Notes under the pieces: model-generated
What the model was told of the DNA's origin: nothing
The model's input: the letters and a program-made list of their open reading frames with translations, nothing else
Databases searched by the model: none
Position numbers and translations under genes: made by a program
Shown: piece by piece, positions 3,758 to 32,300 of the stretch
How positions within the stretch are numbered: the first letter of the stretch is position 1
Layout of the letters: every line of letters begins with the position of its first letter
From: a virus
DNA: 40,700 nucleotides
Virus record (IMG/VR): IMGVR_UViG_3300006845_000028
Span: 1-40,700 of that record
Reading direction: 5' to 3' (one strand)

Positions 3758-3797
3758 GTCTATATCGAGTCTATCTTGTCTAACAACCAGTCTCAGG
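3758..3797 (+). repeat. four-unit GTCTA iteron array
   Basis: GTCT units begin at 3758, 3769, 3778 and 3790 (steps 11, 9, 12). The unit sequences are GTCTAT, GTCTAT, GTCTAAC and GTCTCAG. A GGTTA-AGC-TAACC palindrome follows at 3796-3808. The same steps are seen in the minus-strand array starting at 20803, and 12/9/12 in the one at 32246. The array fills the 101-base gap between genes, together with the tail of the 3681/3756 inverted repeat. Best explained as a protein-binding site (operator or replication iteron). Confidence 0.75.
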
Positions 3798-3833
3798 TTA
3801 AGCTAACCTAAACACGTAGTAGAGGGGTACCCA

Positions 3834-4214
3834 ATGGGTGACCGTGAGGAGATCCAGCGAGCCAAGCAGCAGTACGAGTACGAGAAGCTCGACGAGGTGT
3901 GGCACATCTTCAACGATGGTCTGCGCCTACCCACAGACGAGCATGAGGAGGTGCACCCGTCACCAGCTCTGGTGGCTCTACTGCGTGATCGGCTCACGCA
4001 AGCCACTGAGTGGACGAGGGAAAAGGCAACAACACAGGCCGAGGCAGTTGAGATATACTCGGCATACTGCAGCCACCTACTGGTCCTGATGTTTCGGTTC
4101 GGTCAGTTCTGCAACCAGCTGCCCCAGCCAATCAAGTACGAAGACCTAACGCCGTGCACGTGCGGCACTCTAACAGAAGAGGACATTGAGAAGTTCCTCA
4201 AGATTGGAGAGTAA
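3834..4214 (+). CDS. hypothetical protein
   Basis: A 126-residue acidic, helical protein beginning at ATG 3834 behind AGAGGGG. A C-terminal CTCG pair and an earlier Cys are present but no clear metal site. The central section (ALVALLRDRLTQATEWTREKATTQAEAVEIYSAYC) is one long helix. No family is recognised. It is the first gene after the iteron array and directly precedes the SNF2 helicase, so the two may work together. Confidence 0.65.
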   Translation: MGDREEIQRAKQQYEYEKLDEVWHIFNDGLRLPTDEHEEVHPSPALVALLRDRLTQATEWTREKATTQAEAVEIYSAYCSHLLVLMFRFGQFCNQLPQPIKYEDLTPCTCGTLTEEDIEKFLKIGE

Positions 4215-4215
4215 C

Positions 4216-5649
4216 ATGGAATTGTACCCCTTCCAGCAGCAGGCAGTGGACAAACTGTGGAATGTGCCTGCAGTATTGGTGGGGGATGAAATGGGCCTTG
4301 GTAAGACGGTCGAGGCCATTGCGCTGGACATCAGGCGGAGACAGGAGCTTGGAGCTCCCCTAACGTGGAAGACACTCGTAGTAGCGCCTACGAGCCTTCT
4401 CTCGAGTTGGGCCGATCACTTCCGCGAACTATGTCCGGACCTGAAAGTTAAGGTCATCGACCCGAAGGTGCGTCACAAGCTTCTGTACGCACTCAAGAAG
4501 GACAGGGCAACCATCTTCATCGTCCACTGGGCGGTAATCCGCCTCATGCCAGAACTCGCCCAGTACACCTGGTTCCACGTCATTGGCGACGAGATTCAGT
4601 CGATCAAGAACCGTGACGCCCAGCAAACGGTCGCGTTCAAGAAGCTGACTGCAGTCTACAAGACAGGCCTGTCAGGTACCCCCGCTGACAACAAGCCACA
4701 AGATCTATGGTCTGTCTTGCACTGGCTGTATCCCAAAGTCTGGACCTCCTACTGGGGGTTCTTCAAGCGGCACGTGGACTCAGTCCAGCATACAGCTGGG
4801 CCGATGATGTGTGCAGGAGAAGGTTGCTACAAGAAGCACATCCGAGGCTTCAGGGAGAATGCAGGTCCTAAGAACGTGGAAGAGCTCCACGCGGCTATGG
4901 ATCCGTTCTACGTTCGACGCCTCAAGGTGGACGTTCTTAAAGACCTCCCGGACAAGTACTACTCCGAACTCGTCGTTGATCTTCACCCCAAGCAGCGACG
5001 AGCTTATGATTCCATGCGGGACGTAATGCTTGCATGGATCGGTGAGCACGAAGAAGAGCCTGTGGCTGCCCCGGCAGTCATTTCACAACTCGTACGTCTC
5101 CAACAGTTCGCCTGTGCCTACGGTGAGCTGGTTCAGGTGAACAAGCGCAACAAGGTATCCGGCGAGGTCGAGACGCTCAATGCGCTAAAGCTGACTGAAC
5201 CCTCGACCAAGATCGACGCCGTAGTCGAACTGGTAGGAAACACAGATGGACAAGTTGTCGTATTCGCCCAATCGAAACAGGTCATTCATCTACTGGCTGC
5301 GAGGCTTACACGTAAAGGTATCACTAACTGCACTCTTACTGGAGACACACCGCAGGCGGATCGTGGTCCTATGGTGGCTGACTTCCAGTCTGGTAAGTAT
5401 CAGGTTTTTTCTGGAACCATCACGGCGGGCGGTATTGGTCTCACCCTCACTGCTGCTTCGACGGTTGTGTTCATTGATCGTGCGTGGAACCCCTCGAAGA
5501 ACAGGCAGGCTGAGGATCGCCTTCACCGTGTCGGACAAAAGAACGCGGTACAAGTGGTAACGATCATTGCCAAGGAGACGCTCGACGCCGAACGCAATGA
5601 CAGCATCGAACTCAAGTGGGAATGGATCAAGGCCCTCTTGGGGGACTAA
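4216..5649 (+). CDS. SNF2-family DNA helicase/translocase
   Basis: A 477-residue superfamily 2 ATPase. The start is ATG 4216 with TTGGAGAG upstream; the product begins MELYPFQQQAV, the usual Q-motif-like start of compact phage SNF2 proteins. Walker A is DEMGLGKT (about residue 25), motif II is DEIQ, motif III is LSGTPADN, and motif VI is AEDRLHRVGQ in the C-terminal RecA lobe. It lacks accessory chromatin domains. Such enzymes translocate on double-stranded DNA and remodel protein-DNA complexes; in phages the exact role (replication restart, clearing of roadblocks) is not settled. It is the first large gene of the early block. Confidence 0.93.
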   Translation: MELYPFQQQAVDKLWNVPAVLVGDEMGLGKTVEAIALDIRRRQELGAPLTWKTLVVAPTSLLSSWADHFRELCPDLKVKVIDPKVRHKLLYALKKDRATIFIVHWAVIRLMPELAQYTWFHVIGDEIQSIKNRDAQQTVAFKKLTAVYKTGLSGTPADNKPQDLWSVLHWLYPKVWTSYWGFFKRHVDSVQHTAGPMMCAGEGCYKKHIRGFRENAGPKNVEELHAAMDPFYVRRLKVDVLKDLPDKYYSELVVDLHPKQRRAYDSMRDVMLAWIGEHEEEPVAAPAVISQLVRLQQFACAYGELVQVNKRNKVSGEVETLNALKLTEPSTKIDAVVELVGNTDGQVVVFAQSKQVIHLLAARLTRKGITNCTLTGDTPQADRGPMVADFQSGKYQVFSGTITAGGIGLTLTAASTVVFIDRAWNPSKNRQAEDRLHRVGQKNAVQVVTIIAKETLDAERNDSIELKWEWIKALLGD

Positions 5650-5662
5650 GGAGGTGAGGACA

Positions 5663-5722
5663 ATGGTGCGCTGCGTTCAGCCCTGTGCACTGGACGTATT
5701 AAAGGAAAGGCGCCTACGCTAA
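5663..5722 (+). CDS. possible 19-residue leader-type peptide
   Basis: ATG 5663 follows an almost perfect SD (AAGGAGGTGA) placed right after the helicase stop. The frame gives 19 residues ending at TAA 5720-5722. Two cysteines are present. It has no recognisable homologue and may be only a re-initiation site, but the SD is stronger than that of most genes here. It lies just upstream of the 5742-5791 hairpin. Confidence 0.35.
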   Translation: MVRCVQPCALDVLKERRLR

Positions 5723-5741
5723 CTACTTCCTCAACTGCTCA

Positions 5742-5791
5742 GGGTGGAGGGACTATGGGGGAACGGAAGACTGCCATCGGTCCCTCCACCC
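5742..5791 (+). terminator. 12-bp intergenic stem-loop
   Basis: GGGTGGAGGGAC (5742-5753) is exactly complementary to 5780-5791. The stem carries a GGAGGG SD-like run and ATG 5754 follows it, opening a 24-codon frame. No U-tract follows the right arm. It separates the helicase transcript from the next gene and could be a Rho-type or processing hairpin. Confidence 0.5.
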
Positions 5792-5806
5792 GACTTAAGG
5801 AGAACA

Positions 5807-6079
5807 ATGGATCTGCCTACCGCACGTGAACCTACTGGAGTACGCGTACTCTTGGGCGACCTCAAGGATGTCAAGAGCATCGGCTGTCACATGTACTACG
5901 TCGTAGACGGGAAGAGCAACCTCAACGCAATGAGGCATGACGCACGATTCTACTCCAGTGACGACCCGCACCTCCTCATGCGCTACAGCACACTGATTCA
6001 CTGGCACCACAAGAACGTGACCTGTAGCGACGAATACGCACACGAGTTTTACCCTGTTGAACAACCCACTGGAAAGTAG
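5807..6079 (+). CDS. hypothetical protein
   Basis: A 90-residue protein. ATG 5807 is preferred over an upstream in-frame GTG at 5744 because AAGGAG lies at 5797-5802 and because the upstream part falls in a stem-loop. The sequence has an alternating strand/helix pattern with several histidines (HWHHKN). No family is recognised. It is followed by an inverted repeat with a T-rich tail. Confidence 0.65.
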   Translation: MDLPTAREPTGVRVLLGDLKDVKSIGCHMYYVVDGKSNLNAMRHDARFYSSDDPHLLMRYSTLIHWHHKNVTCSDEYAHEFYPVEQPTGK

Positions 6080-6082
6080 TGC

Positions 6083-6143
6083 AAAGCCCACACGGCCTGA
6101 GGAATTCTGGCACCCGCCAACTTCCTTAGCCCGTGTGGGGTTT
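6083..6143 (+). terminator. imperfect long hairpin with T-rich tail, probable terminator
   Basis: CCCACACGG (6087-6095) pairs with CCGTGTGGG (6131-6139), and AAA/TTT extends the base with one mismatch. TTTGGTTTACTTT follows the right arm. Both arms match the CCACACGG..CTNAGG half of the intergenic element seen at 13949, 20880, 22619 and 38305, so this is that element in inverted duplicate. Confidence 0.6.
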
Positions 6144-6192
6144 GGTTTACTTTCAATCGGCATAGATAACTATCACTTGACAAGGAGGAAAC

Positions 6193-6369
6193 ATGTCCGA
6201 GCTAACCAGATGCAACTACTGTTCATTGCGTGCCATGAAGGAGCGTGCCGAGGCGCGAGGCGTGACTGTGATCGTTGGTCATGAAGATGGGTGGACTACT
6301 GCCCGTTACTCAGACGAAGAGGAACCGGCAGCCTATTTCCTGACTCTGTCTGGAAGGTGTGAATGCTAA
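6193..6369 (+). CDS. small cysteine-rich protein
   Basis: A 58-residue protein with a strong AAGGAGG SD (6182-6188) and ATG 6193. It starts with a CNYC knuckle and ends with CEC, four cysteines that could bind one zinc ion. The middle section is acidic (YSDEEEPAAYF). No family is recognised. It overlaps the next gene by seven bases. Confidence 0.65.
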   Translation: MSELTRCNYCSLRAMKERAEARGVTVIVGHEDGWTTARYSDEEEPAAYFLTLSGRCEC

Positions 6370-6677
6370 TGGAAGAGAACCTGCCTGCTGTGAAGCGGGA
6401 GTTCCCCAAGAAGGATCCGTTCAGTGACGGTACTGTCATTCGGTACGCACGCGTCTTGTCCAATAGGCACTACAACTACGTTGCCGTCAAGGCAAACGGA
6501 ATGTGGTACTCGTCGGCACAAGGCACATTCCAGTACACATGGGATCAGTTCGTCTTCGAACAGCTTGCCCACGAGCACACCATGCACATCGAAGTTGCCC
6601 TGGCCTTCATCGACTTCTTTGACTACCTGGAAGCCCAGAGGACAGGCACTTACTCCACAGTCTCGTTGGAGGGCTAA
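6363..6677 (+). CDS. hypothetical actinophage protein
   Basis: A 104-residue protein; ATG 6363 (SD GGAAGG just upstream) or ATG 6369 may be the start. It has a central beta-rich part (HYNYVAVKANGMWYSSAQGTF) followed by a helical half with an HEHTMH cluster. The WYSS...YTWDQFV pattern is familiar from unannotated actinophage early proteins, but no function is known. It is coupled to the next gene by TAATG. Confidence 0.7.
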   Translation: MLMEENLPAVKREFPKKDPFSDGTVIRYARVLSNRHYNYVAVKANGMWYSSAQGTFQYTWDQFVFEQLAHEHTMHIEVALAFIDFFDYLEAQRTGTYSTVSLEG

Positions 6678-7728: not shown

Positions 7729-7748
7729 AGGATCTTGAGAAGGCCCCC

Positions 7749-7778
7749 TTGAGAACATCGGTTGACCCGAGTTATAAT
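7749..7778 (+). promoter_or_regulatory. sigma70-type promoter, copy 3
   Basis: TTGAGA (7749-7754), 18-base spacer containing TTGACC, TATAAT (7773-7778). The upstream AAGGATCTTGA and CCCCC are shared with the copy at 940. It should drive the recombination genes that follow. Confidence 0.8.
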
Positions 7779-7820
7779 TAGATCAACGAACCTCATTATC
7801 CCCCAAACGAGGTGACCCTG

Positions 7821-9107: not shown

Positions 9108-9125
9108 CACAGGAGAGGAAAGGCA

Positions 9126-9287: not shown

Positions 9288-9290
9288 CAG

Positions 9291-10561: not shown

Positions 10562-10570
10562 CACCCTGAC

Positions 10571-10630
10571 GTACGGCCCAAGCTGAAGGTAACTACTTCC
10601 GGTGTCAGAGCACATCAGCTTGGGCCGTAC
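10571..10630 (+). terminator. perfect 16-bp stem-loop at operon end
   Basis: GTACGGCCCAAGCTGA (10571-10586) is exactly complementary to 10615-10630, with a 28-base loop. It lies ten bases after the DUF669 stop. No U-tract is present, so it is either Rho-type or an RNA-processing or stabilising structure. Confidence 0.6.
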
Positions 10631-10653: not shown

Positions 10654-12876
10654 GTGGACCTTTCGAGTTGTGCCACGTTGGAAGCTCGTGCCGATCGGGA
10701 GGTCTTCTTTCGCAGTGTCTTCGGTTCTAACGAAGGCATCTTCTGCATAGGCGTTTCACCTGTGCCTATACCGGGGAATAAGCGAAAGATGCACCAGCGC
10801 TTCTATGACTACCCCACCGAACTGGCTCAAGCACTCGACATCATAGACGCACACATCTCAAAGTCTGACTTGTACTTCTGTCCACAGTTGCTGGAGGAGA
10901 AGAAGCTGTCCAAAGGGACGGTAGTGTTATGTCCCACAGCGTGGGCAGACCTCGACGATTGTCCACCGAGTAGGCTACTTGTTACGCCTACGCTTGTTTG
11001 GGAGACGTCACCTGGAAGATTCCAGGCTGTTTGGCGGCTCGAAGAATCACTGTCGCCACAGGATGGTGAATCGCTTTCCAGGCGGATTGCTTACTACCAC
11101 GCAGGCGATGGTGCAGATAGAAGTGGCTGGGATCTTACACAGTTCCTGCGCATTCCACGAACAGGCAACTACAAGTACCAAGACCCACTAATGCCTTCAG
11201 ATCCAGCAATCGTACGGATCACTGGTGGCTCTGCAGCGAAGTACAGGCTAGAGGACTTCAAGAAGTACCCGGAAGTGAAGCGGGCCGAGTTCCTTGAGAT
11301 GCCCCTGCCTGCAACTATTCCGACAGAAGACCCTCTGGAGATCATGCAGAGATACCGTCGGAGTCTAAATGCACTTGTGTTTGACCTGTTCAGTACTGAA
11401 CCAAAAGGCACGTGGAGTGAACAACTCTGGCGACTCATGATGTTGCTGTTCGAAGCGGGCATGGAAATGCCTGAGGTACTGCACATTGCAAATGAGGCCG
11501 CCTGCAACAAGTACAAGCGTGACGGACGTGACATCGAGTACTTGTGGCGTGACGTTTGTCGGGCTTATGTAAAGTGCCAACAGAACATCGGTGCTGTAGT
11601 CCTACCCGCTGCCCCACAAGTCGAACTTATCTCGGACGAGGAAGAAAGAGCTGTAGCACAACAAGACACGTTCCTGGAAAGGTACATTGCATGGGCCAGC
11701 CAGTTAGGGGACGCAGCACCACAGTATCATCAAGCAGGTGCGTTTGTTGCCCTGAGTTCCATTCTGGCCGGCCATGTCCGCTTGCCAACTTCCTTCGGTA
11801 CGATGATTCCCAATCTGTGGTTCATGATTCTTGCCGATACGACCCTCACACGAAAGTCCACCGCAATGGACATTGCGATGGACCTGATAATGGAGGTAGA
11901 TGATGACGTGCTCCTAGCCACTGACGGCTCGCTCGAAGGCATGATGCAGTCACTCCAAGCCAGACCTGGACGTGCATCTGTATTCCTTCGTGACGAGTTT
12001 AGTGGCCTCCTGGAGATGATGACGAAGCGTGACTACTACGCTGGCATGGCAGAGATGCTAACCAAACTGTATGACGGGAAGATGCAGAAGAGAATCCTCC
12101 GAAGGGAAACCGTAGAGGTGCGCGAACCCGTCCTGATCCTCTTTGCCGGTGGCATTCGTAACCGCGTGCAGTCACTCTTGTCAACAGAACACGTCTCGTC
12201 AGGCTTTATCCCCCGGTTCGTCTTCATCACAGCGGAATCGAACACAGATCGCATTCGACCACTCGGACCACCTACAACAGTAGACATGAGCAACCGCAAC
12301 CAACTGATCCGCGAACTAGCAGATATGGTAGCACACTACCATATCTTGGATGGCAAACGGAACACGACTCAGAAGGTCGACGCTACCCTATCTACAGCTG
12401 CATGGGCAAGGTACAACAAGCTGGAAACGGACCTACTAAAGTCGGGCCTAGATGCAGAACGTCCCGACTTGATGACACCAATGTTCGACAGACTTGCTAA
12501 GTCCACGCTGAAGGCTGCGATACTTATTGCTGCCTCAAGGCAACGTGAAGATCGTGTTACTGTCGACGAAGCTGACCTAGTAACAGCTATCAGCCATGCA
12601 ACAAGGTGGCGCAGCTATGCGATCGAAGTCGTCAACGGTGTTGGTAGGTCAACAATCGAACGTGACTTGGACAAGATTTACTCAGCCATTGCTAGGAACC
12701 CTGGCATCAGTAGGTCGAAGCTCATGCAGAACTATCACCTAACTGCAAAGGGTGCAGACGCTATCTTCGACACACTCATGCAACGAGGCATGATCAAGGT
12801 ATCGAAGATAGGCCAAACGACAGTGTACCATCCACTCGGACCCAGTAAACCCAACCTAGGAGGTAAGTTAGGATGA
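10654..12876 (+). CDS. primase-helicase-like replication protein (RepB-like primase plus DUF3987)
   Basis: A 740-residue protein from GTG 10654 (SD GAGAGGGGA). Residues about 1-200 look like the archaeo-eukaryotic-type RepB-like primase region (CPTAWADLDDCPP, QAVWRLEE, DLTQFLRIPRTGNYKY). Residues about 330-620 match DUF3987: ILADTTLTRKST is a P-loop variant, VFLRDEFSGLLEMM a Walker B-like strand, and FAGGIRNRVQSLL and SGFIPRFVFI follow. The end (DKIYSAIARNPGISRSKLMQNYHL...) is a winged helix. It probably primes and unwinds DNA at the fork, working with the polymerase encoded at 17741. The last four bases overlap queC. Confidence 0.82.
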   Translation: MDLSSCATLEARADREVFFRSVFGSNEGIFCIGVSPVPIPGNKRKMHQRFYDYPTELAQALDIIDAHISKSDLYFCPQLLEEKKLSKGTVVLCPTAWADLDDCPPSRLLVTPTLVWETSPGRFQAVWRLEESLSPQDGESLSRRIAYYHAGDGADRSGWDLTQFLRIPRTGNYKYQDPLMPSDPAIVRITGGSAAKYRLEDFKKYPEVKRAEFLEMPLPATIPTEDPLEIMQRYRRSLNALVFDLFSTEPKGTWSEQLWRLMMLLFEAGMEMPEVLHIANEAACNKYKRDGRDIEYLWRDVCRAYVKCQQNIGAVVLPAAPQVELISDEEERAVAQQDTFLERYIAWASQLGDAAPQYHQAGAFVALSSILAGHVRLPTSFGTMIPNLWFMILADTTLTRKSTAMDIAMDLIMEVDDDVLLATDGSLEGMMQSLQARPGRASVFLRDEFSGLLEMMTKRDYYAGMAEMLTKLYDGKMQKRILRRETVEVREPVLILFAGGIRNRVQSLLSTEHVSSGFIPRFVFITAESNTDRIRPLGPPTTVDMSNRNQLIRELADMVAHYHILDGKRNTTQKVDATLSTAAWARYNKLETDLLKSGLDAERPDLMTPMFDRLAKSTLKAAILIAASRQREDRVTVDEADLVTAISHATRWRSYAIEVVNGVGRSTIERDLDKIYSAIARNPGISRSKLMQNYHLTAKGADAIFDTLMQRGMIKVSKIGQTTVYHPLGPSKPNLGGKLG

Positions 12877-13754
12877 GTGACAGTTGTGCCATCGTCTCAG
12901 GTGGCCTCGACAGTACGACCCTCGTGTATGACATGTTGGACAAGGGCTATCGTCCACACTTGCTGTCCTTCGACTACGGTCAGAGGCACAAGAAGGAACT
13001 GACCTTCGCACGAGCAACTGCACAACGTCTTGGCCTGGAGTTTCACGTGATCGACCTTCGCGGCATCACTGAACTCATTAGCAACTCGGCCCTCACCTCA
13101 CTACCCTCACGCACATACGAACTGTTGACAGACGGAGAGAACCTGCAGGTCGGCAAACCTGTCAATATGTACGACGTTGCAGTACCAGCGATCGAAGTGC
13201 CTGAAGGCCACTACGCCGAAGACACAATGAAGCAGACCGTCGTTCCGAATCGGAACATGATCATGCTCTCGATTGCGGCTGGTGTGGCTGTGAATAACAA
13301 GTACAAGACGATCGGCTTCGGTGTCCACTCCGGTGATCACTTCATTTACCCGGACTGCCGTCCTCGATTCGTCGTCAACGCTGGGTGGGCAATTCTGTCC
13401 GGCAATGAAGGCTTTCACCACTTTGAAGAACACCTCATCAATCCACCGGGCGAAGAAGAGTCCACACCTGCGTACACACCAATCTACGCACCGTTCTTGC
13501 ACAAGACGAAGGCCGACATCGCATACCGGGCACTCGAGCTCGGTGTTCCGATTCAGCACACGTGGAGCTGCTACAAGGGCGGTGAGAACCACTGCGGCCG
13601 ATGCGGAACATGCGTCGAGCGCCTCGAAGCTATTGACGAGGCATGTGACCGTTTTGGCCTAGCCAAGGAAGGTCGCGTAGTCGACAAGACCGTGTACGAC
13701 GACTCCGAGTACTGGAAGGTGGCAGTCCGTGAGGCAGCTGACAGGACACCGTAA
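12873..13754 (+). CDS. queC: 7-cyano-7-deazaguanine (preQ0) synthase
   Basis: A 293-residue PP-loop ATPase. SGGLDSTTLVYDML at the N terminus is the PP-loop, FDYGQRH is the QueC signature, and the C-terminal CYKGGENHCGRCGTC supplies the zinc cysteines. QueC converts 7-carboxy-7-deazaguanine to preQ0 with ATP and ammonia. It is some 60 residues longer than cellular QueC (about 230), with extra sequence around residues 70-110 and 165-200. ATGA overlap with the primase gene puts it in the replication operon. No fused amidotransferase is seen. Confidence 0.95.
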   Translation: MSDSCAIVSGGLDSTTLVYDMLDKGYRPHLLSFDYGQRHKKELTFARATAQRLGLEFHVIDLRGITELISNSALTSLPSRTYELLTDGENLQVGKPVNMYDVAVPAIEVPEGHYAEDTMKQTVVPNRNMIMLSIAAGVAVNNKYKTIGFGVHSGDHFIYPDCRPRFVVNAGWAILSGNEGFHHFEEHLINPPGEEESTPAYTPIYAPFLHKTKADIAYRALELGVPIQHTWSCYKGGENHCGRCGTCVERLEAIDEACDRFGLAKEGRVVDKTVYDDSEYWKVAVREAADRTP

Positions 13755-13953
13755 GGGTAAGGAGACGCGCCTTCTCGCCTTCATCGATGTGGACGACACC
13801 TGGACTATCCAAGGCGAATGGATTGTCGTCAATAACGTCATAGGCGAGTTCGTAAGCGCCTACAGGATCTTCCACGACGTCACCCGCATTACACAGGAGG
13901 ACGTGAAGAACGAGCCTGTATCTTCGAACTTCGTCTCGGACTACCCTGGTTAA
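13729..13953 (+). CDS. hypothetical protein
   Basis: A 74-residue protein from GTG 13729 (GGAAGGTGG upstream), overlapping the end of queC by 26 bases. Predicted beta-rich (RLLAFIDVDDTWTIQGEWIVVNNVIGEFVSAYRIF). No family is recognised. Its TAA stop lies in the TTAAC core of the intergenic element that follows. Confidence 0.6.
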   Translation: MRQLTGHRKGKETRLLAFIDVDDTWTIQGEWIVVNNVIGEFVSAYRIFHDVTRITQEDVKNEPVSSNFVSDYPG

Positions 13954-13994
13954 CAACCCTGCGATTCATTCACACAACTCCACACGGCCTAGGA
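13949..13994 (+). repeat. TTAACAACC...CCACACGG...AGGA intergenic element, copy 1
   Basis: GTTAACAACC, then CATTCACACAACTCC, then CCACACGG and CCTAGGA. About 80 percent the same as 20880-20926. The TAA inside its first bases is the stop of the preceding gene, and its AGGA end lies just upstream of queD. Confidence 0.7.
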
Positions 13995-14010
13995 AGTAGG
14001 AAGGTTGACG

Positions 14011-14463
14011 TTGACACGCTATGTGGTTTCGAAGGAGATCGAGTTCGATGCAGGACACCGAGTTCCTGACCATGAAGGTAAGTGTTCGAGCCCTCACGGG
14101 CACCGTTACCGCATCGTTCTAGCAGTTCAGGGCGATCTGCAGATGGAAGGCTCACGAACCGGAATGGTCTTGGACTTCGGCGAGATCAAGAAGGTCCTGA
14201 CAGAAGTCCACGACAAGTACGACCACGGCTTCATGTTCTACAGGCTGGACGTACGAATGCGTGCGCTCGTCGACTACTCCATGCCGAAGTGGGACTGGAA
14301 GTGGGTCTCTGTCGAGTTCTCACCAACGGCGGAGAACCTGGCAAAGGACATCTTCGAATACTGTGAGGAGCGCTTTGACGATCTTGCCCTTCCAGGCACA
14401 CCGCTCTACGTCGAGGTTTGGGAAACACCCACCTCGATGGCCATGTATCCTGCACCATCATAA
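14011..14463 (+). CDS. queD: 6-carboxy-tetrahydropterin synthase
   Basis: A 150-residue protein. TTG 14011 is taken as the start because AGGAAGG ends six bases upstream; TTG 14005 is possible. FDAGHRVPDHEGKCSSPHGHRYRI gives the zinc histidines and the catalytic Cys (CSSPHGH). DFGEIKK, DHGFMF, SPTAENLAKDIF and VEVWET complete the QueD/PTPS pattern. The enzyme turns 7,8-dihydroneopterin triphosphate into 6-carboxy-5,6,7,8-tetrahydropterin, the second step to preQ0. It follows the intergenic element and precedes two small unknown genes and queE. Confidence 0.95.
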   Translation: MTRYVVSKEIEFDAGHRVPDHEGKCSSPHGHRYRIVLAVQGDLQMEGSRTGMVLDFGEIKKVLTEVHDKYDHGFMFYRLDVRMRALVDYSMPKWDWKWVSVEFSPTAENLAKDIFEYCEERFDDLALPGTPLYVEVWETPTSMAMYPAPS

Positions 14464-14472
14464 GGAGGTAGC

Positions 14473-14712
14473 ATGCCAGCAGGGTTTGTCCGTGTCACCA
14501 TTGAGGTGGCAGTACCTGGACGTATGTTCAGGACGAAGAAGGTTGTTAGGCTCCTCCCTGAAGACCTTCTGGACAAGACACTCGGCAACGAGCACCGTCG
14601 GACAGCAGCCAAGAACATGATCGGCCTGGCCTTCATGGAGGCGTACGGCAAGGCAATTGGAGAACGGAGCGAAGGCTCTACACTGTCCATGAAGAGGAAT
14701 CATGAATGGTGA
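14473..14712 (+). CDS. hypothetical basic protein
   Basis: A 79-residue protein with an ideal SD (AAGGAGG) before ATG 14473. N-terminal beta segment (FVRVTIEVAVPGRMFRTKKVVRLLP), helical C terminus. No family is recognised. Overlaps the next gene by 11 bases. Lying between queD and queE, it may be an accessory of the modification pathway, but that is only from position. Confidence 0.65.
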   Translation: MPAGFVRVTIEVAVPGRMFRTKKVVRLLPEDLLDKTLGNEHRRTAAKNMIGLAFMEAYGKAIGERSEGSTLSMKRNHEW

Positions 14713-14968
14713 AGTCAAGTTGGGTATGGACGTCCAACTACATCACACGACCCGTCCAGACGTGCCGCTCGGGAGAGTGGTAGGCATCATCAAGCGACCT
14801 GGTGCAGGATACATGCCAGGTGAACTGGTAGTCCGCAGACCAGACGGTAGCACTATGAAGGTGCACAAGGCGTGGGTAGAGAGGTTCTACCCACCACGCA
14901 TTCGGGTCAACACATCCTGGGGCTACTTCGAGGGTCCACTCGACCAACTAAAGGGCTTGCCATGCTAA
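14702..14968 (+). CDS. hypothetical SH3-like protein
   Basis: An 88-residue protein, beta-rich: VKLGMDVQLHHTTRPDVPLGRVVGIIKRPGAGYMPGELVVRRPDGS. The 'G..V......P..GRVVGI......V.V.' spacing is reminiscent of small SH3/KOW-like barrels. Function unknown. Its last seven bases overlap the queE start. Confidence 0.6.
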   Translation: MNGEVKLGMDVQLHHTTRPDVPLGRVVGIIKRPGAGYMPGELVVRRPDGSTMKVHKAWVERFYPPRIRVNTSWGYFEGPLDQLKGLPC

Positions 14969-15654
14969 GACTCGTTGAACGGTACAACAGCTTCCAAGGC
15001 GAAGGACCGAACACTGGTAAGCCAACCATGTTCGTTCGCTTTGCTGGATGTAACTTCAAGTGCGCGGGCTGGCCTTGCGACACGCAGCACGCCATCGACC
15101 CGGCAATCTTCACTAAGACACAACAGTTCATCACGCCCGAGGACCTGTCTGACAGGATTCTCAGTGATCCGATCACGAACATCTGCTTCACAGGCGGAGA
15201 ACCGTTCCTGCAGAACCACAATGACCTGCAGCACGTTTGGGCAGCCATCAAGGCGCGCGGCAGGACCATCGAGGTGTTCACGAACGGCTCGCTTCGGTGG
15301 CCGAAGGATGTTGACCTCGTCGACACCTTCATCCTGGACTGGAAGCTTCCAGGCTCAGGCGAGTTCCCGGACGACGCGATCCTCGAGCCCAACCTCAACC
15401 GCCTCGGTCCAAGCGACGCCATCAAGTTCACAATCAAGGACCAGGCTGACTTCGATCGGGCACTGCAGAACTGGCAAACGTTCCTGATATACAAGCCCAA
15501 CCCCGCCGATCGCCCTGTGGTGTGGTGTGGACCCGTTTGGGGTAGTTTAACACCGGAGAAGCTAGTCCGGTGGATCAACAATGCCGAAGTTCCATGGAAC
15601 CTTAACATCCAAGTGCACAAGTACGTTTTCGGAGCCGACACGATTGGAGTGTAA
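14962..15654 (+). CDS. queE: 7-carboxy-7-deazaguanine synthase (radical SAM)
   Basis: A 230-residue radical SAM protein; ATG 14962 gives the standard QueE opening RLVERYNSFQGEGPNTGKPTMFVRFAGCN. The cluster cysteines are in CNFKCAGWPC (C-x3-C-x4-C), one or two residues longer than the usual C-x3-C-x2-C, followed by DT as in other QueE. FTGGEPFLQ binds SAM. QueE contracts the 6-carboxypterin ring to 7-carboxy-7-deazaguanine. It overlaps the preceding gene and leads into folE with a one-base gap. Confidence 0.93.
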   Translation: MLRLVERYNSFQGEGPNTGKPTMFVRFAGCNFKCAGWPCDTQHAIDPAIFTKTQQFITPEDLSDRILSDPITNICFTGGEPFLQNHNDLQHVWAAIKARGRTIEVFTNGSLRWPKDVDLVDTFILDWKLPGSGEFPDDAILEPNLNRLGPSDAIKFTIKDQADFDRALQNWQTFLIYKPNPADRPVVWCGPVWGSLTPEKLVRWINNAEVPWNLNIQVHKYVFGADTIGV

Positions 15655-15655
15655 G

Positions 15656-16321
15656 TTGCCTAACCCGTCTGACCACTATGCAGCCCTTGCCAAAGAGGCT
15701 GTCGACTACATGATTCCTCACCAGCAAGTTCATGCCTCAGACATACCGAGGTCAGCAGACTTGGCTGAGACCATATTGAGCGTGCATGCAGGTTTGGTTC
15801 AAGACGAGCACGGCAAAAAGACACCTCAACGATTCGTAAACATGTTGGATGAACTTACACAGTGCCGCCCCGACTTAATGACACCCGATCACCTTGAGGA
15901 CTGCCTCAAGTGGGCTCAGTTCAAAAATGATGGCATGGACGAGATGATTGCTATGGCGAACATCTCGTTCGTGTCCGTCTGTAATCACCACGTCATTCCC
16001 TTCGTAGGCAAAGTACACATTGCCTACATACCTGACCAGCTCATCTGTGGCCTGAGCAAGCTTGCACGGGTCGCACACCACTTTGCACGCCGGCTACAGA
16101 TCCAGGAGCGAATGACAAGGCAGATCGCCGACTTCCTCTTCGATCGACTTGAACCACGAGGCCTTGCGGTCATGGTGCAAGCAGAGCACATGTGCATGAC
16201 CATTCGAGGAGTACAGACCCCCGGTACCATCACAACTACATCAGACATGCGTGGCGTGTATAGCGACCACACCCGCACAGCCAAGGCCGAGTTCCTTCAG
16301 ATCATTGGAGTCAGCAAGTGA
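15656..16321 (+). CDS. folE: GTP cyclohydrolase I
   Basis: A 221-residue protein. TTG 15656 is preferred (GGAG six bases upstream); the longer in-frame opening overlaps queE. VCNHHVIPFVGKVHIAYIP holds two zinc ligands (Cys, His) and AEHMCM the third (Cys). LSKLARVAHHFARRLQIQERMTRQIA is the FolE substrate-binding helix region, and RGVQTPGTITTTSDMRG closes the active site. FolE makes dihydroneopterin triphosphate from GTP, the first step of preQ0 synthesis, so the phage carries the whole route and need not depend on host supply. Confidence 0.95.
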   Translation: MPNPSDHYAALAKEAVDYMIPHQQVHASDIPRSADLAETILSVHAGLVQDEHGKKTPQRFVNMLDELTQCRPDLMTPDHLEDCLKWAQFKNDGMDEMIAMANISFVSVCNHHVIPFVGKVHIAYIPDQLICGLSKLARVAHHFARRLQIQERMTRQIADFLFDRLEPRGLAVMVQAEHMCMTIRGVQTPGTITTTSDMRGVYSDHTRTAKAEFLQIIGVSK

Positions 16322-16991: not shown

Positions 16992-16992
16992 C

Positions 16993-20764: not shown

Positions 20765-20870
20765 CTGAGACTGCTTGTTAGACTTGATAGACTCTAAATA
20801 GACGCGATGACAGAGCGTATCTATAGAGTAGGTAAGCTCGAGGATCTTGCGAGTCTATTTAGAGTCTATC
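20765..20870. repeat. iteron array in inverted duplicate with 18-bp perfect arms
   Basis: On the minus strand GTCT units begin at 20803, 20792, 20783 and 20771 (steps 11, 9, 12), the same as the array at 3758. On the plus strand the first two units recur at 20853 and 20864. This makes perfect 18-bp inverted arms (20786-20803 with 20853-20870) around a 49-base centre. The region has no gene. It could be an origin or an operator. Confidence 0.8.
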
Positions 20871-20879
20871 AGGTCCCTT

Positions 20880-20926
20880 GTTTAACAACCCACTGATTCA
20901 TTCACACACCTCCACACGGGCTAGGA
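20880..20926 (+). repeat. TTTAACAACC...CCACACGG...AGGA intergenic element, copy 2
   Basis: Starts GTTTAACAACC, continues with ATTCATTCACACACC and ends CCACACGGGCTAGGA. AGGA lies eight bases before ATG 20934 and probably serves as its SD. Nearly the same as 13949-13994. Confidence 0.7.
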
Positions 20927-20933: not shown

Positions 20934-21344
20934 ATGAAAGTGTTTCTGGGTAATAGACAATCAGGTAAGACACAGGCGCTTATCGACTGGATCATGGAAG
21001 GAGAGCCTACTCTCCAGTATCCGAACTGGTCGCGAGTGATCGTTTGTCCGAATCACGAGCAGACCGTCCTGGTGTACAAGCGGCTCCGCAAGGCGACGGA
21101 GGGCGTCGATTCGCAAGAACACCCGTACGTCCACGACCTGCGTAAGGCCGTCTGGAGCATCAATGACTTGCGGGCCAACCTGCGCGGAAGCCTTTCAAGT
21201 CACCGTGGCGAGTTCGAGATTGCGCTTGACAACGCCGACCTGATCATCCGAGAGGCACTTGGGTGGGGCTCTCCATCCCTGATCACGATAACAGGAGAAC
21301 TGTATGACACCAAAGTTGAGGGTGCCCCCGCCATCGGATCGTAG
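20934..21344 (+). CDS. P-loop NTPase-like protein
   Basis: A 136-residue protein with an N-terminal Walker A (FLGNRQSGKTQALIDWI) followed by a strand (SRVIVCPNHEQTVLVYKRLRK) and a helix. A DLIIREAL strand near the end could be a poor Walker B. Too small for a full helicase; possibly a truncated or minimal P-loop protein. It comes directly after the intergenic element and overlaps the RuvC-like gene by 41 bases, so the two are likely made together. Confidence 0.7.
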   Translation: MKVFLGNRQSGKTQALIDWIMEGEPTLQYPNWSRVIVCPNHEQTVLVYKRLRKATEGVDSQEHPYVHDLRKAVWSINDLRANLRGSLSSHRGEFEIALDNADLIIREALGWGSPSLITITGELYDTKVEGAPAIGS

Positions 21345-21882
21345 CAAGCTCGCCATCATCGCAGTTGATCCCGGACCCGGATGTGGCATCGCTGTCTACC
21401 ATCCCTACCCTGCAGTGCCTGGACACAACTTCGACACACAGACTCTCAATCTTGAGTCTGATGGACATGGGTGGTTGTACAAGCACCTTAGTGAGACTAT
21501 TCACGACCTGAAGTTCTTCCTTAAGGATAATGGGCCAGATCAGGAGGTCTCTGCTACGGCCGGTGTCGTCCTGATCTGTGAGAAGTTCGAATACCGCAAG
21601 GACGACGCTAGAGAGCGAGAGCGCATCAACTTCATGGCAGCCGAGTACGTTGGTGTCTGCAAGTTATTGGCACAGGAGTACGAGAGGCGTCTTCTGCTCG
21701 CCCAGGACATCGTCATGCAGGGGGCCTCAGAAGCTAAGGGCTTCTGGACGAACTTCAAACTAGCTCAGCTCGGCCTACACGGTGGCTCTCGTCATGAAAT
21801 GGATGCGCTACGGCATCTGTTGAAATTCATGACCTTCAATTTGCACCAGCAATGGTTACTCAAGATGCTGAAGGAGGCGTAG
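21304..21882 (+). CDS. RuvC-like Holliday junction resolvase
   Basis: A 192-residue RNase H-fold protein. AIIAVDPGPGCGIAVYH supplies the first Asp, VVLICEKFEYRK the Glu, and RHEMDALRHLLKF the closing Asp. 'QGASEAKGFWTNFKLAQLGLH' is typical of phage RuvC-like proteins. It would resolve branched replication and recombination intermediates before packaging. ATG 21304 has AGGAGA upstream. Confidence 0.85.
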   Translation: MTPKLRVPPPSDRSKLAIIAVDPGPGCGIAVYHPYPAVPGHNFDTQTLNLESDGHGWLYKHLSETIHDLKFFLKDNGPDQEVSATAGVVLICEKFEYRKDDARERERINFMAAEYVGVCKLLAQEYERRLLLAQDIVMQGASEAKGFWTNFKLAQLGLHGGSRHEMDALRHLLKFMTFNLHQQWLLKMLKEA

Positions 21883-22142
21883 TGCCAGTTGAACGTGTCT
21901 GGGCATTCGATGCTGATCGGCCCATGCGTAGTTGGGGACCACCCAAGGCACACCTAGTACTGAAGACCGAACGTGGCTTTGGTCGCATGGCTAGGTGTGG
22001 TAAAGGTGATGGCGCCGAATGGTCAGACGAACCAGGAGGAGTGGCAATCCGACCGAAGTGTGGCCGTTGCCTACAAGCCACAGAGGCTGAAGTGCCCCGG
22101 ACACGTCCTCCTCAGCCCTTAAGGCCAAAGCCACGTCCATAG
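21882..22142 (+). CDS. small cysteine-containing hypothetical protein
   Basis: An 86-residue protein. GTG 21882 is preferred because AAGGAGG lies just upstream; it shares one base with the RuvC-like stop. It has an Arg-Cys-Gly (MARCGKG) and CGRC, so one zinc ion could be bound. The C terminus is Pro/Arg-rich (RTRPPQPLRPKPRP). No family is recognised. Confidence 0.65.
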   Translation: MPVERVWAFDADRPMRSWGPPKAHLVLKTERGFGRMARCGKGDGAEWSDEPGGVAIRPKCGRCLQATEAEVPRTRPPQPLRPKPRP

Positions 22143-22150
22143 GAGGCGAC

Positions 22151-22528
22151 ATGTGGGACTACCGTGCAAAGCTGCTGGAAGTTGTCGATGGTGACACACT
22201 CAACTTACTCATCGACACAGGTTTTAGCGGCCGAGTGGAAGAAGCAATTCGCCTGAAGGACGTCTTCGCACCCGAGAAGAATCAACCAGGTGGGAAAGAG
22301 GTGAAGGGATTTGTAGCTTGGTGGCTCGGTAATAGTATGAATTCCGCACTTAAGTGGCCACTGCAGGTCTATACGCGACCGAACACTAAGCTCGAACCGG
22401 ACGAGATCCGGACCTTTACACGCTACGTGGGAGTCGTCCAAGCTATAGGTGCGATTCCCACGCTAAACGAGGCCTTGATCATGTTCCTTGCACAGCATCC
22501 AGAGTGGGGAAAGGGCATTGGAGGATAG
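22151..22528 (+). CDS. staphylococcal nuclease-like protein
   Basis: A 125-residue protein with AGGAGG before ATG 22151. LLEVVDGDTLNLLID, EAIRLKDVFAPEKNQPGGKEVKGFV and FTRYVGVV match the SNase fold: Asp of GDT, Arg of IRL, Glu of APE and a late Arg are all present. SNase-like proteins cut DNA or RNA with calcium. Here it ends the rightward block. It could degrade host DNA, or the modified phage DNA may be protected against it. Confidence 0.78.
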   Translation: MWDYRAKLLEVVDGDTLNLLIDTGFSGRVEEAIRLKDVFAPEKNQPGGKEVKGFVAWWLGNSMNSALKWPLQVYTRPNTKLEPDEIRTFTRYVGVVQAIGAIPTLNEALIMFLAQHPEWGKGIGG

Positions 22529-22534
22529 ATAAGC

Positions 22535-22584
22535 CGAGCTGGTTAGCAGGAGGGACCCAATGGGTGGGGCTGCTAACCAGCTCG
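22535..22584. terminator. 15-bp perfect stem-loop at the convergent junction
   Basis: CGAGCTGGTTAGCAG (22535-22549) is exactly complementary to 22570-22584. The loop holds AGGAGGG-like SD, ACCCAATGGGT and ATG 22560. It lies between the end of the rightward block and the end of the leftward block, so it is probably a terminator for one or both directions. No U-tract is seen. Confidence 0.65.
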
Positions 22585-22592
22585 ACGTCAAC

Positions 22593-22614
22593 GGGAATCA
22601 TTTGGCGGATTCCC
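22593..22614. terminator. second small hairpin at the convergent junction
   Basis: GGGAATC (22593-22599) pairs with GATTCCC (22608-22614), with an eight-base loop. Together with the larger stem just before it, it may block read-through from the leftward genes. Confidence 0.45.
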
Positions 22615-22618
22615 AACG

Positions 22619-22658
22619 CCGTGTGGAGTTGTGTAGGACCTCTAAGGTCTAGTTAAAC
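22619..22658 (-). repeat. TTTAAC...CCACACGG intergenic element, copy 4 (minus strand)
   Basis: Read on the minus strand: GTTTAAC, 18-20 bases, ACACAACTCCACACGG. The TAA of its core is the stop of the holin-like gene, as with the copy at 13949. It lacks the AGGA end. Confidence 0.6.
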
Positions 22659-26090: not shown

Positions 26091-26098
26091 AGTCCCTC

Positions 26099-27262: not shown

Positions 27263-27265
27263 ACG

Positions 27266-28771: not shown

Positions 28772-31506
28772 TACATCCTCCCTGCCAGTTCCCAGCCAAG
28801 CCTGCCTGCCTGCTCACGTGCATCGAGTTCCTGGGTGTATATGGTGATGTTGTTCGTGATCTGCTTCTTGCCTTCATTCGCAGGCATGAGTGCCCTGCTC
28901 TGTCCGGCAACATCCACAGGGGCTGCTTCATTCGGTGCCAACGCTGCAGGTCGAATTCCCAGGAAGGCATCTGAAGGGCTTAACCCTTGCGCCATCGTTC
29001 GCTGGAAGCCTAGGATGTACCCTTCTGCGGAATAGGCACCAATCTCTGCCATTACCTTGCTTGGTGAGGTGATGCCTAGGAGCGTCTTAAAGGCTTCGAT
29101 CACTCCACCAGTTAGACTCTTGATGACACCAAGGACGGTACTGAACTTGTCCTTGATACCGTCAGCGAGACCCTGGATTATGTTCTTGCCGAAGTTCAGG
29201 AACTCGGTCGTCTTGGTGCTGAAGAAGTTCGGGATAGTGTTCGCGAAGAAGTTCACGACGTTCTGCCAACCCTCGTAGAGGGCATGCCAGATCGCGACTC
29301 CGATATCCTTGAACCCCTGGCCTATTTTCTTCAGGCCCTCCCAAAGCGTCATGATGACGGTCCAGAGGAACTGGCCCGTTTCTACGAAGAGTATGAATAC
29401 ACCTACGACTGCCAGTACGCCTGCGATGAGGGGTCCGATGAAGGCTACGACAAGGACGCCTACAATGACAGCGCCAATGATCAAGGCCCACTTGACAACC
29501 TGGGCTAGGATTGCAATGAGCGGCTCCAACGTCGACTTGTTGCGTTCCCACCACGCGGTCAGTTTCTGGATGGCTGGAATCACAACATTGTCGATGACCT
29601 TACCGATCTGCTCAAAGGCCCAAGTCACGATCGATGTGATGATTCGGCCTGCTTCTTCAAGCTTCGGCTTCAATACGTCCCAGACTTCCTTCTGGAACTT
29701 GGTGAAGGCCGGAATTACCTTGTCCTCAACTACCTGCATGAGGCGCTCAAGTGGTGGGAGGAGCTTCTCCTTAAAGGCCTTCCAGATGCCTTCGGAAGTG
29801 TCCTTGAAGATCTTAAGGCCTTCCTTCACCTGGTCCCAGGTCTGCTTGAGGTTCTCCCGGAAGCTAGCACTCTGAGCCCACGCGACTGCCAGTGCTGCAG
29901 CAAGACCAAGGACGCCTGCGACGAGTACAGTAACGGCAAGAACAACTGGAACTAGGACGGCCCAAGTAGCTGAGATTGCAGCGAGGAAGACGGCAAGGAG
30001 ACCCAGGAGGGTCAAGAGCGCACCAACAACAATGGCAAGAACAGATCCCCACATGAGGAACTGGGCGATCATGGACTTAGTACTAGGCGATAGTTTGTCG
30101 AACCAGTTGAAGACCCGTTCGACTATTCCAAGGAGACCCTCGAACGCAGGTATAAGTCCCTCGCCAAGCTGCTCCTTCATCACCTTCCACTTGTTGGAAA
30201 CGATGACGGACTTCATGGCAGTCGTGTCAGCCATGATTGCGTATGCGTTCTCAAACGAGCCGGTGTCCTTCTCCATCTCCTTGAGGATGACTTCGAACAG
30301 CTCTAGGGAACCTTCACCTAACAGCATGCTCTGCAGGAATCGGCGTGCCTCAATAGTACTACCTGCGCCTTGGAAGGTTTCAAGGATTGCTCCCACACGG
30401 TCTTCCTTAGGCATCTTCAACAGAATGCCTCGGAACTCTCGCAGGATCTCGTTGAACGGTCGCATAGCGCCATCGGCATTGCGAACCTTAATGCCCAACG
30501 CTTCCATGTCCTCGATGGCCTTGGGGTTCGACATTGCGTCGAAGGCACGCGAGACAGCAGTCGCTGACCTGGAGGCAGGAATACCAAGCCGCGTAGTGAC
30601 TGCTAGGGCAGCGAGCATTCCTTCAATTGACTGTTCGGCACGCACTGCCGATGGCGAAACCATACCAATGCGTGCGACCCACTCTGAATACGAACCAATA
30701 CCTTCCTGGACCAGCTGGAACTGAAGGTCGAGGATGTGGTTGACTCGCTCAACCGGTACATTGAACGCGTTCATGATACCGATTGTGGCTCGCGATGCAG
30801 CCTGAAGATCAGTCTGACCGGCCACAGCTGCCTTGGAGAACAGGGTCAGGAGCTTCTCGGCATCCTTGGTGGAGATTTCCAGTGACGAGAAGATGTCGAA
30901 CAGTGCTGGCTGGACCTCTTCGAAGGGTACGGCAATCGTCTTGGCGATCTTCAAGCCTATGTCACTGAGGTTGCCGAGGCTCTCGCCAAAGCCGTCAATC
31001 TGGGTAAGTGTGGCTGCAACTTGCCGTTGCCACTCAACCGTAACATCGATGACACCCTTCATGGCCGCGACGCCTGTTACGCCCAGGAAGCCAAATGCCA
31101 CACCAACAGTTTCTAGGGCAACACCGGTTTGAGTGAGAGTCCCAGTAAGGTGGTTCTGTTGCTGTGCGGCACGTTGCAAGGCAGTCGCTTGTCTGTCATA
31201 CCCTTGTGCCTGTTTCTCAAGAGCAACAGCTTCCTTCTGCATCTCCACGATCTTGGACGAAAGTCCTCTAATCTGGGCGCGTGATGCCTCGTTCTCCTTC
31301 AAACGTGCCAGTTCGACACGTTTGGTGGCAATCTCGCTCCTCTTGAGGTTCGCCTGCTCACGGATCGAGTCAGCCTGGGCCTTCAGTGAAGCAACACGGG
31401 CAGCAGTGCCAGTACGCGTGATCTCTTGCGCAAACCGCTGCATGTTTCGTGTACCTTCGTCACGAACACGTAGGGCTAGGTAGAGCTCCCGCGTACTGAG
31501 CGACAT
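28771..31506 (-). CDS. tape measure protein
   Basis: A 911-residue protein, the longest tail gene. The N-terminal 120 residues are coiled coil. Residues about 150-430 match the TP901-type tape measure core (FEEVQPALFDIFSSLEISTKDAEKLLTLFSKAAVAG). The middle has hydrophobic segments (LTLLGLLAVFLAAISATWAVLVPVVL; VVAFIGPLIAGVLAVVGVFILF), usual for proteins that reach the host membrane. At about 3 nm per 20 residues it would give a tail of about 135 nm. Starts six bases beyond the tail chaperone stop. Confidence 0.95.
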   Translation of the reverse strand: MSLSTRELYLALRVRDEGTRNMQRFAQEITRTGTAARVASLKAQADSIREQANLKRSEIATKRVELARLKENEASRAQIRGLSSKIVEMQKEAVALEKQAQGYDRQATALQRAAQQQNHLTGTLTQTGVALETVGVAFGFLGVTGVAAMKGVIDVTVEWQRQVAATLTQIDGFGESLGNLSDIGLKIAKTIAVPFEEVQPALFDIFSSLEISTKDAEKLLTLFSKAAVAGQTDLQAASRATIGIMNAFNVPVERVNHILDLQFQLVQEGIGSYSEWVARIGMVSPSAVRAEQSIEGMLAALAVTTRLGIPASRSATAVSRAFDAMSNPKAIEDMEALGIKVRNADGAMRPFNEILREFRGILLKMPKEDRVGAILETFQGAGSTIEARRFLQSMLLGEGSLELFEVILKEMEKDTGSFENAYAIMADTTAMKSVIVSNKWKVMKEQLGEGLIPAFEGLLGIVERVFNWFDKLSPSTKSMIAQFLMWGSVLAIVVGALLTLLGLLAVFLAAISATWAVLVPVVLAVTVLVAGVLGLAAALAVAWAQSASFRENLKQTWDQVKEGLKIFKDTSEGIWKAFKEKLLPPLERLMQVVEDKVIPAFTKFQKEVWDVLKPKLEEAGRIITSIVTWAFEQIGKVIDNVVIPAIQKLTAWWERNKSTLEPLIAILAQVVKWALIIGAVIVGVLVVAFIGPLIAGVLAVVGVFILFVETGQFLWTVIMTLWEGLKKIGQGFKDIGVAIWHALYEGWQNVVNFFANTIPNFFSTKTTEFLNFGKNIIQGLADGIKDKFSTVLGVIKSLTGGVIEAFKTLLGITSPSKVMAEIGAYSAEGYILGFQRTMAQGLSPSDAFLGIRPAALAPNEAAPVDVAGQSRALMPANEGKKQITNNITIYTQELDAREQAGRLGWELAGRM

Positions 31507-31509
31507 GCT

Positions 31510-32156
31510 TCACCTTCTCCGACTATTGATCTGCGCCTGCGCCTGTGCTGCCTTCCGACGTTCCCGTTCTGCTTCCTGTGTATCACGTTCAGCATCTGCT
31601 TCGAGGACGGTCTGGAACAAGTACACCAAGAACGCGTCCTGGTCGAAAAGGCCACCAGGTTCAGGCAGAGTTCGTAGTTTTACACACAGTCGAACTATTC
31701 CGATGACTTCTCGGGCGTCGTGCTCGATTGGACGACTGAGGACGATTCCGGCGCGGAGCCGGAAGGCGAGTTTTTTACTGCTTCGTCCTCCTCAAAGTTG
31801 TTCATCTTGTCCATGAACGTGGAGATTTCCTCGCCGACGCGAGGATCAAGGATCTCCACGTCGGCAGGGTTCTTGAAGTTGAGAGGACGAACTGGCCCAT
31901 CTGGAGTGTCTTGGTGCTCCAGGTTGTGCTCGAGGATGAGGTTGGCGAACTCCCACATTTGGACTTCGGCCTTCATCATGTTGATCTCGCCGACAGCATC
32001 CTTATCCACTTTGTTGGACAGAATGCGCAACTTGCCTGTCGACTCCAGCCGGTGCATCTTCTCGCCGTACGTCATGCGACGTATAACGACGTAGCCCTCT
32101 GGAAGTGTCTTGAGATCGAGCCTCTCCGCTTTCTTGATGATCGTTGCAACTGGCAT
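31510..32156 (-). CDS. tail assembly chaperone, long frameshifted form (G-T type)
   Basis: A -1 ribosomal frameshift at the A AAA AAC heptamer (31770-31776 in plus coordinates) joins the first 129 codons from ATG 32156 to an 86-residue reading frame (31770 down to the TGA at 31510-31512). The extension reads IEHDAREVIGIVRLCVKL...GLFDQDAFLVYLFQTVLEADAERD and a helical, basic tail. This gives a 215-residue product. Long and short chaperone forms in a fixed ratio are the rule in siphoviruses, with the gene just upstream of the tape measure as here. Confidence 0.88.
31695..32156 (-). CDS. tail assembly chaperone, short form (G type)
   Basis: A 153-residue protein from ATG 32156 (SD GGGAGG). MPVATIIKKAERLDLKTLPEGYVVIRRMTYGEKMHRLESTGKL is a typical opening for actinophage tail chaperones; the C terminus is acidic and Ser-rich. 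An upstream in-frame ATG at 32255 lies in the intergenic repeat and is rejected. It assists tube assembly around the tape measure protein. Confidence 0.88.
   Translation of the reverse strand: MPVATIIKKAERLDLKTLPEGYVVIRRMTYGEKMHRLESTGKLRILSNKVDKDAVGEINMMKAEVQMWEFANLILEHNLEHQDTPDGPVRPLNFKNPADVEILDPRVGEEISTFMDKMNNFEEDEAVKNSPSGSAPESSSVVQSSTTPEKSSE
31746..31776 (-). other. programmed -1 frameshift signal
   Basis: On the minus strand the in-frame heptamer A AAA AAC is followed, after five bases, by a seven-pair stem (TTCCGGC with GCCGGAA; plus 31746-31752 and 31758-31764) with a five-base loop. The slippery heptamer, spacer and stem match the classic -1 layout, and the frame entered encodes the tail chaperone extension. 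Confidence 0.88.
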
Positions 32157-32178
32157 TTGTTCCTCCCTCTGGAACATA

Positions 32179-32300
32179 TAGACTTGAGTTAGAATCGCGT
32201 GTGTCAACGAGCTTATTAGAGCTACGTAAACGGTTAGTTCCTCAAGTCTAATCACTTGTCTCTCTTGTCTAACCGCGAGTCTAAGGTTAAGCTCACCCTA
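32179..32300. repeat. iteron array with inverted partial copy, between tail tube and tail chaperone genes
   Basis: Plus-strand GTCT units begin at 32246, 32258, 32267 and 32279 (steps 12, 9, 12), followed by a GGTTAAGCT run like that after the 3758 array and a TAAGCT/AGCTTA hairpin. A partial inverted copy at 32183-32194 gives 10-bp arms (32179-32188 with 32241-32250). The 147-base gap has no gene. On the transcribed minus strand it may regulate or terminate between the tail tube and later tail genes. Confidence 0.75.

Follow-up and report, generated by a model that had tools for sequence, protein, structure and literature searches.

The repeats of this phage genome are real, and each four-unit GTCT array is one half of a larger composite element of about 100 bases, in which an inverted pair of the same units comes before the array. 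We propose that a cooperative DNA-binding protein encoded by the phage docks on this element and would control the transcription of gene modules. On the sequence evidence our confidence in this reading is evenly balanced, and the product of the gene at 1043-1543 is the best candidate for the protein.

The window, meaning the whole stretch of DNA that was analysed, covers one IMG/VR record over its full length (40,700 bases). A longer contig, G001 (51,180 bases), is identical to it at all sampled points (offset: window position + 7,047). G001 is the same phage and no independent genome. Together with 35 other related viral contigs, which were recruited via the DNA polymerase and via protein 1043-1543, it forms the set of 36 contigs compared here. 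The relatives are all metagenomic and host-less. Searches of phage records by DNA similarity returned none resembling the window, and the top match of the DNA polymerase has ~31% identity. Host identification was tried via integrated relatives, and no close one was found in the scanned genome contigs (best polymerase 39%). Genes were called with a simple in-house ORF caller. The plus strand carries the early and replication genes (helicase, exonuclease, Sak4-like protein, SSB, primase, DNA polymerase), the minus strand the structural genes (portal, major capsid, tape-measure-like, minor tail). As a separate observation, genes for QueC, QueD, QueE and GTP cyclohydrolase at 12873-16321 represent the 7-deazaguanine pathway, which suggests that the phage DNA is modified.

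Anatomy of the composite element

Three complete elements and one two-unit pair are found in the window:

Element B, 3694..3793, plus strand: L1 3694-3697 (AGAC), L2 3705-3708 (AGAT), gap 53; R1 3758, R2 3769, R3 3778, R4 3790 (end 3793), steps 11-9-12; upstream of 3834 and the helicase unit
Element C, 20768..20867, minus strand: L2 20853-20856, L1 20864-20867, gap 53; R1 20800-20803, R2 20789-20792, R3 20780-20783, R4 20768-20771, unit starts 20803/20792/20783/20771, steps 11-9-12; between the HNH gene and 20934
Element D, 32180..32282, plus strand: L1 32180-32183 (AGAC), L2 32191-32194 (AGAA), gap 55; R1 32246, R2 32258, R3 32267, R4 32279, steps 12-9-12; between 31695-32156 (minus) and the minor tail gene 32304-33245 (minus)
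Two-unit pair, 899..914, minus strand: 12-bp step, upstream of the TATAAT (964-969) of 1043-1543

The arrays at 3758, 20803 (minus) and 32246 have the units and steps that a first-pass annotation of this DNA had claimed, and its further statements, that all arrays end in GTCTAAC-5-GTCT(C/A)AG and lie between genes, are true of all three. The array at 32246 overlaps the longest ORF, 31695-32255 (minus), on its 5' side; the likely start of this gene, with a ribosome-binding site, is at 32156. Inverted copies had been noted at 20.77 and 32.2 kb. They exist there but are not limited to these two places; since the 3758 array also has one (3694-3708), all three arrays carry an inverted pair, at a fixed distance of 53, 53 and 55 bp. 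The two-unit site reported at 914-897 is likewise real (AGAC at 899-902 and 911-914), but in 30 relatives the DNA ahead of the orthologous gene holds no counterpart. Autoregulation through 896-914 was rejected for this lack of conservation, and the pair at 899-914 is possibly a lineage-specific extra site.

The spaced array pattern gave three matches in the window and none in 100 dinucleotide shuffles. The GTCTAAC heptamer alone is barely enriched (8 found, 4.4 expected), so the signal sits in the spacing. A DtxR/IdeR-type iron box after R4 at 3794 (AGGTTAAGCTAACCTAA) was considered and dropped because the resemblance is confined to this phage and, in part, to its closest relative.

Across the family, the element consists of the inverted pair AGAC-7-AGAC ("L", with L1 and L2), followed by the array R1-R4. 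The consensus unit is GTCT(A/C)(A/T). Its T, C and T hardly vary among the 132 training units, which come from the same phage family and on which the scoring matrix was trained. Single steps vary, with R1-R2 at 11 or 12 and R2-R3 mostly at 9 or 10. Whatever the single steps, R1-R3 is 21 bp in 29 of the 42 strong elements and 20-22 bp in all 42, and R1-R4 measures 30-34 bp, mostly 32-33. The gap between L2 and R1 falls into two classes, 43-45 and 53-55 bp, that lie one helical turn apart. Conservation of this spacer is found mainly at its ends, notably in a (G/T)TC-like motif directly before R1.

With a threshold of 20 bits, 66 elements were found in the 36 contigs, compared with ~2 expected from first-order shuffles (~0.06 per genome). 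Several contigs hold no full element; by eye, they have weak or two-plus-two versions (e.g. G008 and G020). A scan of 2.9 million viral contigs in IMG/VR, in which all gaps from 42 to 55 were allowed, returned 34 matching contig stretches, 33 of which encode proteins of this phage family. The gap is 43-44 or 53-55 in 27 of 28 distinct matches. The exception (L291; gap 46) has no family protein and probably matches by chance.

Module boundaries and promoters

The elements recur in four slots, which are conserved boundaries between gene modules:

Slot A: divergent early/late junction, occupied in many relatives
Slot B: before the helicase
Slot C: after the polymerase and HNH genes
Slot D: between the 153-aa gene and the minor tail gene

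Three of these, B, C and D, are filled in this phage, and slot A of G001 holds no full element. Orientation is steady at most slots and reversed at slot B in some relatives. The array midpoint is genic in 1 of 47 strong elements, compared with a coding fraction of 0.87, and elements are present at the same positions in the relatives with synteny kept. Both results go against the two outcomes, random occurrence inside genes and absence from these positions in close relatives, that the first-pass annotation had named as refuting its claim. The neighbouring genes in the window are:

Unit headed by element B, 3834..5649, plus strand: 126-aa protein, DNA helicase
Unit headed by element C, 20934..22528, plus strand: 136-aa protein, conserved 192-aa protein (phrog_1981), endonuclease (phrog_452)
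Gene next to element D on its L side, 31695..32156, minus strand: 153 aa, conserved

Leftward of the last gene follow a 911-aa tape-measure-like gene and then tail genes. At 22529-22652, between convergent gene sets, we also observed a long inverted repeat, GAGCTGGTTAGCAG...CTGCTAACCAGCTC, which is likely a bidirectional terminator.

A second motif, CTCCACACGG(G), is also intergenic and phage-wide, occurring on both strands about a dozen times per genome. Copies lie at 13944-13994, 20876-20926 and 38301-38351 (plus) and at 22613-22634 and 6123-6142 (minus), often with GTTTAAC ~31 bp upstream; other relatives have the form CCACAGGG. At many slot-C elements this motif starts 27-32 bp outward from L1.

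A strong TATAAT promoter was predicted ahead of two early genes, in 87% of the 1043-1543 homologues and 62% of the exonuclease genes, compared with 4% of the element-headed genes; mid-operon genes are also mostly without one (0-11%). The scarcity at element-headed genes means that these would be either activator-dependent or read through. No consistent sigma70 promoter match was found inside or beside the element, nor a -10 at a fixed place common to all elements; a weak -10-like signal, TA(A/G)(G/C)(C/A)T, lies ~15 bp past R4. The GATCTTG...TATAAT promoters of this phage, at 922-969 (for 1043-1543) and 7731-7778 (for the exonuclease), are kept in most relatives.

Several copies per genome, placed at operon boundaries and heading units that lack a recognisable sigma70 promoter, favour a regulator. 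We prefer transcription control because TATAAT is rare at these genes and the elements sit at module boundaries, which would also be compatible with repression, insulation or a role in replication. The variable orientation of the element relative to the downstream gene, most apparent at slot B, and possible read-through transcription speak against an operator.

From here we infer how such an operator may work. Array and inverted pair would together form one composite operator. As the core GTCT(A/C) is common to the units and the step between them is about one turn, protein monomers would probably line up head-to-tail along a single face of the helix, with four of them on R1-R4 and two more, pointing the other way, on L1-L2. 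Four or five whole turns separate the L and R groups, which would probably touch across the bent spacer, giving one nucleoprotein complex. This complex would sit before the helicase unit, after polymerase/HNH and inside the tail region; many relatives would also have one at the divergent early/late junction. Its most likely effect would be to switch transcription of the modules by the host RNA polymerase, either through activation or through timed repression. The binder would most likely be encoded by the phage, with the BldC-like winged HTH protein 1043-1543 as the best candidate.

Gap classes and candidate binders

In each of the 12 genomes with at least two scored elements, every element belongs to the same gap class. 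On the polymerase tree, which reflects one gene of mosaic phages, the gap class requires five changes, at least four of which are forced by well-supported branches. The central spacers are 43% identical within a genome and 35% between genomes; given this low identity within a genome, the uniform class is not easily put down to simple copying, and elements may be partially homogenised. The sequence of the unit-to-unit spacers is also genome-specific. We read a uniform class combined with divergent spacers as the mark of a trans-acting complex, the geometry of which would constrain every site. It is possible, though we hold this tentatively and at less than an even chance, that one phage-encoded oligomer controls the gene modules by assembling an identical looped complex of six sites at several points in the genome. 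Its loop length would then be constant across a genome and would have shifted more than once, each time by one helical turn and at every site jointly, so that the geometry of the protein and all its sites would have evolved together. Loop length in the 1043-1543 homologues was rejected as the cause of the gap class, as this protein loop has 17 residues with gap 44 in seven genomes and 25 in three gap-44 genomes.

The proposal that a trans-acting protein binds in phase with the DNA helix is thus well supported at the sequence level, by the quantised gap, the locked R1-R3 distance, the conserved intergenic positions and the single class per genome. Two proteins may be considered as binders:

Candidate binder, 1043..1543, plus strand: winged HTH (helices 71-84 and 96-106, wing 116-125, long C-terminal helix)
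Alternative candidate binder, 2439..2900, plus strand: winged HTH with a C-terminal coiled coil

The product of 1043-1543, which the first-pass annotation had named, remains a plausible choice, as its modelled winged HTH resembles BldC, with the second conserved winged HTH protein as an alternative. The N-terminus of 1043-1543 is acidic and its predicted structure has a confident core, a winged HTH followed by the long helix, in which the recognition-helix residues Q97, Y100, S101 and Y102 are strongly conserved. The top fold match is a small-terminase DNA-binding domain (probability 0.95, E 0.12); below it, the match to the BldC-smeA complex is weak (probability 0.82, E 0.47). Family sequence searches of Pfam, PHROGs and PDB gave no usable match. 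For 2439-2900, the fold comparison ranked RepA_N plasmid initiators (PDB 5kbj, 4pt7) best, through their N-terminal domains; these matches are weak, with probabilities up to 1.0, E-values of 0.006-0.012 and TM-scores of ~0.4. Neither protein has a detectable match among 50,697 phage records.

In almost every relative that is complete enough, homologues of both genes are encoded next to each other. Both are absent from five contigs, and one further contig lacks 2439-2900 alone. One relative, G010, has five elements and no detected homologue of either candidate; its helicase and primase homologues are absent too, and the contig is probably incomplete. Two observations stand apart from the binder question. 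The polymerase ORF of G010 (L080), at 3042-6212, is ~270 residues longer than its homologues, and the extra stretch is possibly an intein. In the window, a tRNA-like remnant with a T-arm-like sequence lies at 2928-2999, for which Rfam stayed below threshold (tRNA-Sec, 16 bits) and ARAGORN made no call.

Alternative explanations and related systems

The elements could instead serve replication, as iterons or multiple origins. A phage initiator, for example 2439-2900, would bind them, and they would act in copy control, in pairing or in the firing of origins. Direct repeats in phase with the helix are a usual feature of initiator sites, the modules of the helicase and the polymerase have elements at their borders, and RepA_N initiators, whose fold 2439-2900 recalls, bind repeated DNA sites. 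We nevertheless consider this unlikely. The fold match is weak and the protein lacks the C-terminal domain, and hence the architecture, of an initiator. Where one or few origins, within or beside the initiator gene, would be looked for, each genome has two to five equivalent elements dispersed over separate boundaries, one of them between tail genes, and no AT-rich unwinding region was recognised by eye beside them. Direct repeats of 11 bp are typical of response regulators, which raises the question whether a host regulator, of the OmpR/PhoB type or another direct-repeat binder, times the phage genes or is decoyed by the sites. The array spacing fits an OmpR/PhoB-type 11-bp box and the GTCT core is invariant throughout the family. 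This explanation is improbable to us, as the 2.9 million viral contigs contained one match outside the phage family, and both the genome-specific spacer preference and the gap class fit a virus-encoded partner better. No response regulator was found among the window genes searched.

An inverted pair next to an array also resembles arm-type sites and, with the small-terminase domain as top fold match of 1043-1543, a role in recombination or packaging comes to mind, be it as attachment arms, transposon ends (MITE) or cos/pac-like sites of a small terminase. We regard this as very unlikely: the elements occupy the same slots in divergent phages in several copies per genome, the search of window genes yielded no integrase, transposase or repressor, no close integrated relative turned up in the scanned genomes, and the large terminase gene does not adjoin 1043-1543. 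Finally, in several elements L comes close to the reverse complement of R1-R2 and might pair with it in RNA, forming a hairpin that acts as a terminator, processing site or leader. Spacer complementarity is 65% within an element, little more than the 61% between elements of one genome, and some elements show 0-29%. This comparison, which revealed no compensatory pairing per element, largely refutes the hairpin. RNA pairing would also leave R3-R4 without an explanation, there is no reason for an RNA loop to keep to whole helical turns, and the element has no Rfam match. We consider action as RNA highly improbable.

The preferred reading, transcription control by a cooperative phage protein, finds its closest parallel in BldC of Streptomyces. 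At the smeA-sffA operator, BldC monomers occupy four direct repeats in head-to-tail order, each one turn from the next (PMC5859096). As far as the available text of that study goes, BldC operators share with the phage elements direct repeats spaced by about one helical turn (here R1-R3 20-22 and R1-R4 30-34 bp) and a variable number of sites. BldC is a small winged HTH protein, and the predicted fold of 1043-1543 is similar; head-to-tail binding of such monomers to the phage units would be a further parallel. In contrast, the BldC consensus AATTNNNN(C), AATT-N4-C, is not matched by the phage unit GTCT(A/C)(A/T), BldC is a host regulator, and the same text describes no inverted pair at a quantised distance. 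RcoLS20 of plasmid pLS20 (PMC4207663) likewise has two separated site groups, OI and OII, at promoters, for which looping was proposed. It is an Xre-family protein acting at a single plasmid locus with a longer loop, whereas the phage elements are multicopy with a 44/54-bp gap. The phi29 p4/p6 early-late switch, in which phage proteins shape promoter DNA, may serve as a mechanistic analogue, but involves one regulatory region and different proteins (PMC3100819). Recurrent, largely intergenic and phage-specific motifs are also known as Cluster A stoperators, Cluster O 17-bp repeats and Cluster K SAS (PMC4351075). These are single asymmetric or palindromic sites, often numerous; Corndog has 34 repeat sites, about a third of them in genes (PMC4351075). 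The elements described here are instead multi-unit, phased and placed at few boundaries. They also differ from stoperators in that their orientation is not tied to transcription and no repressor or integrase is found among the searched genes.

The element is a nearly family-specific signature of phages that are known solely from metagenomes. Read as an operator, it would offer a direct handle on gene timing in these phages. The several independent one-turn changes of a putative regulatory loop, made at every site of a genome, would amount to a natural experiment. If the binder is confirmed, head-to-tail regulation by winged HTH proteins would be extended to phage-wide transcription control.
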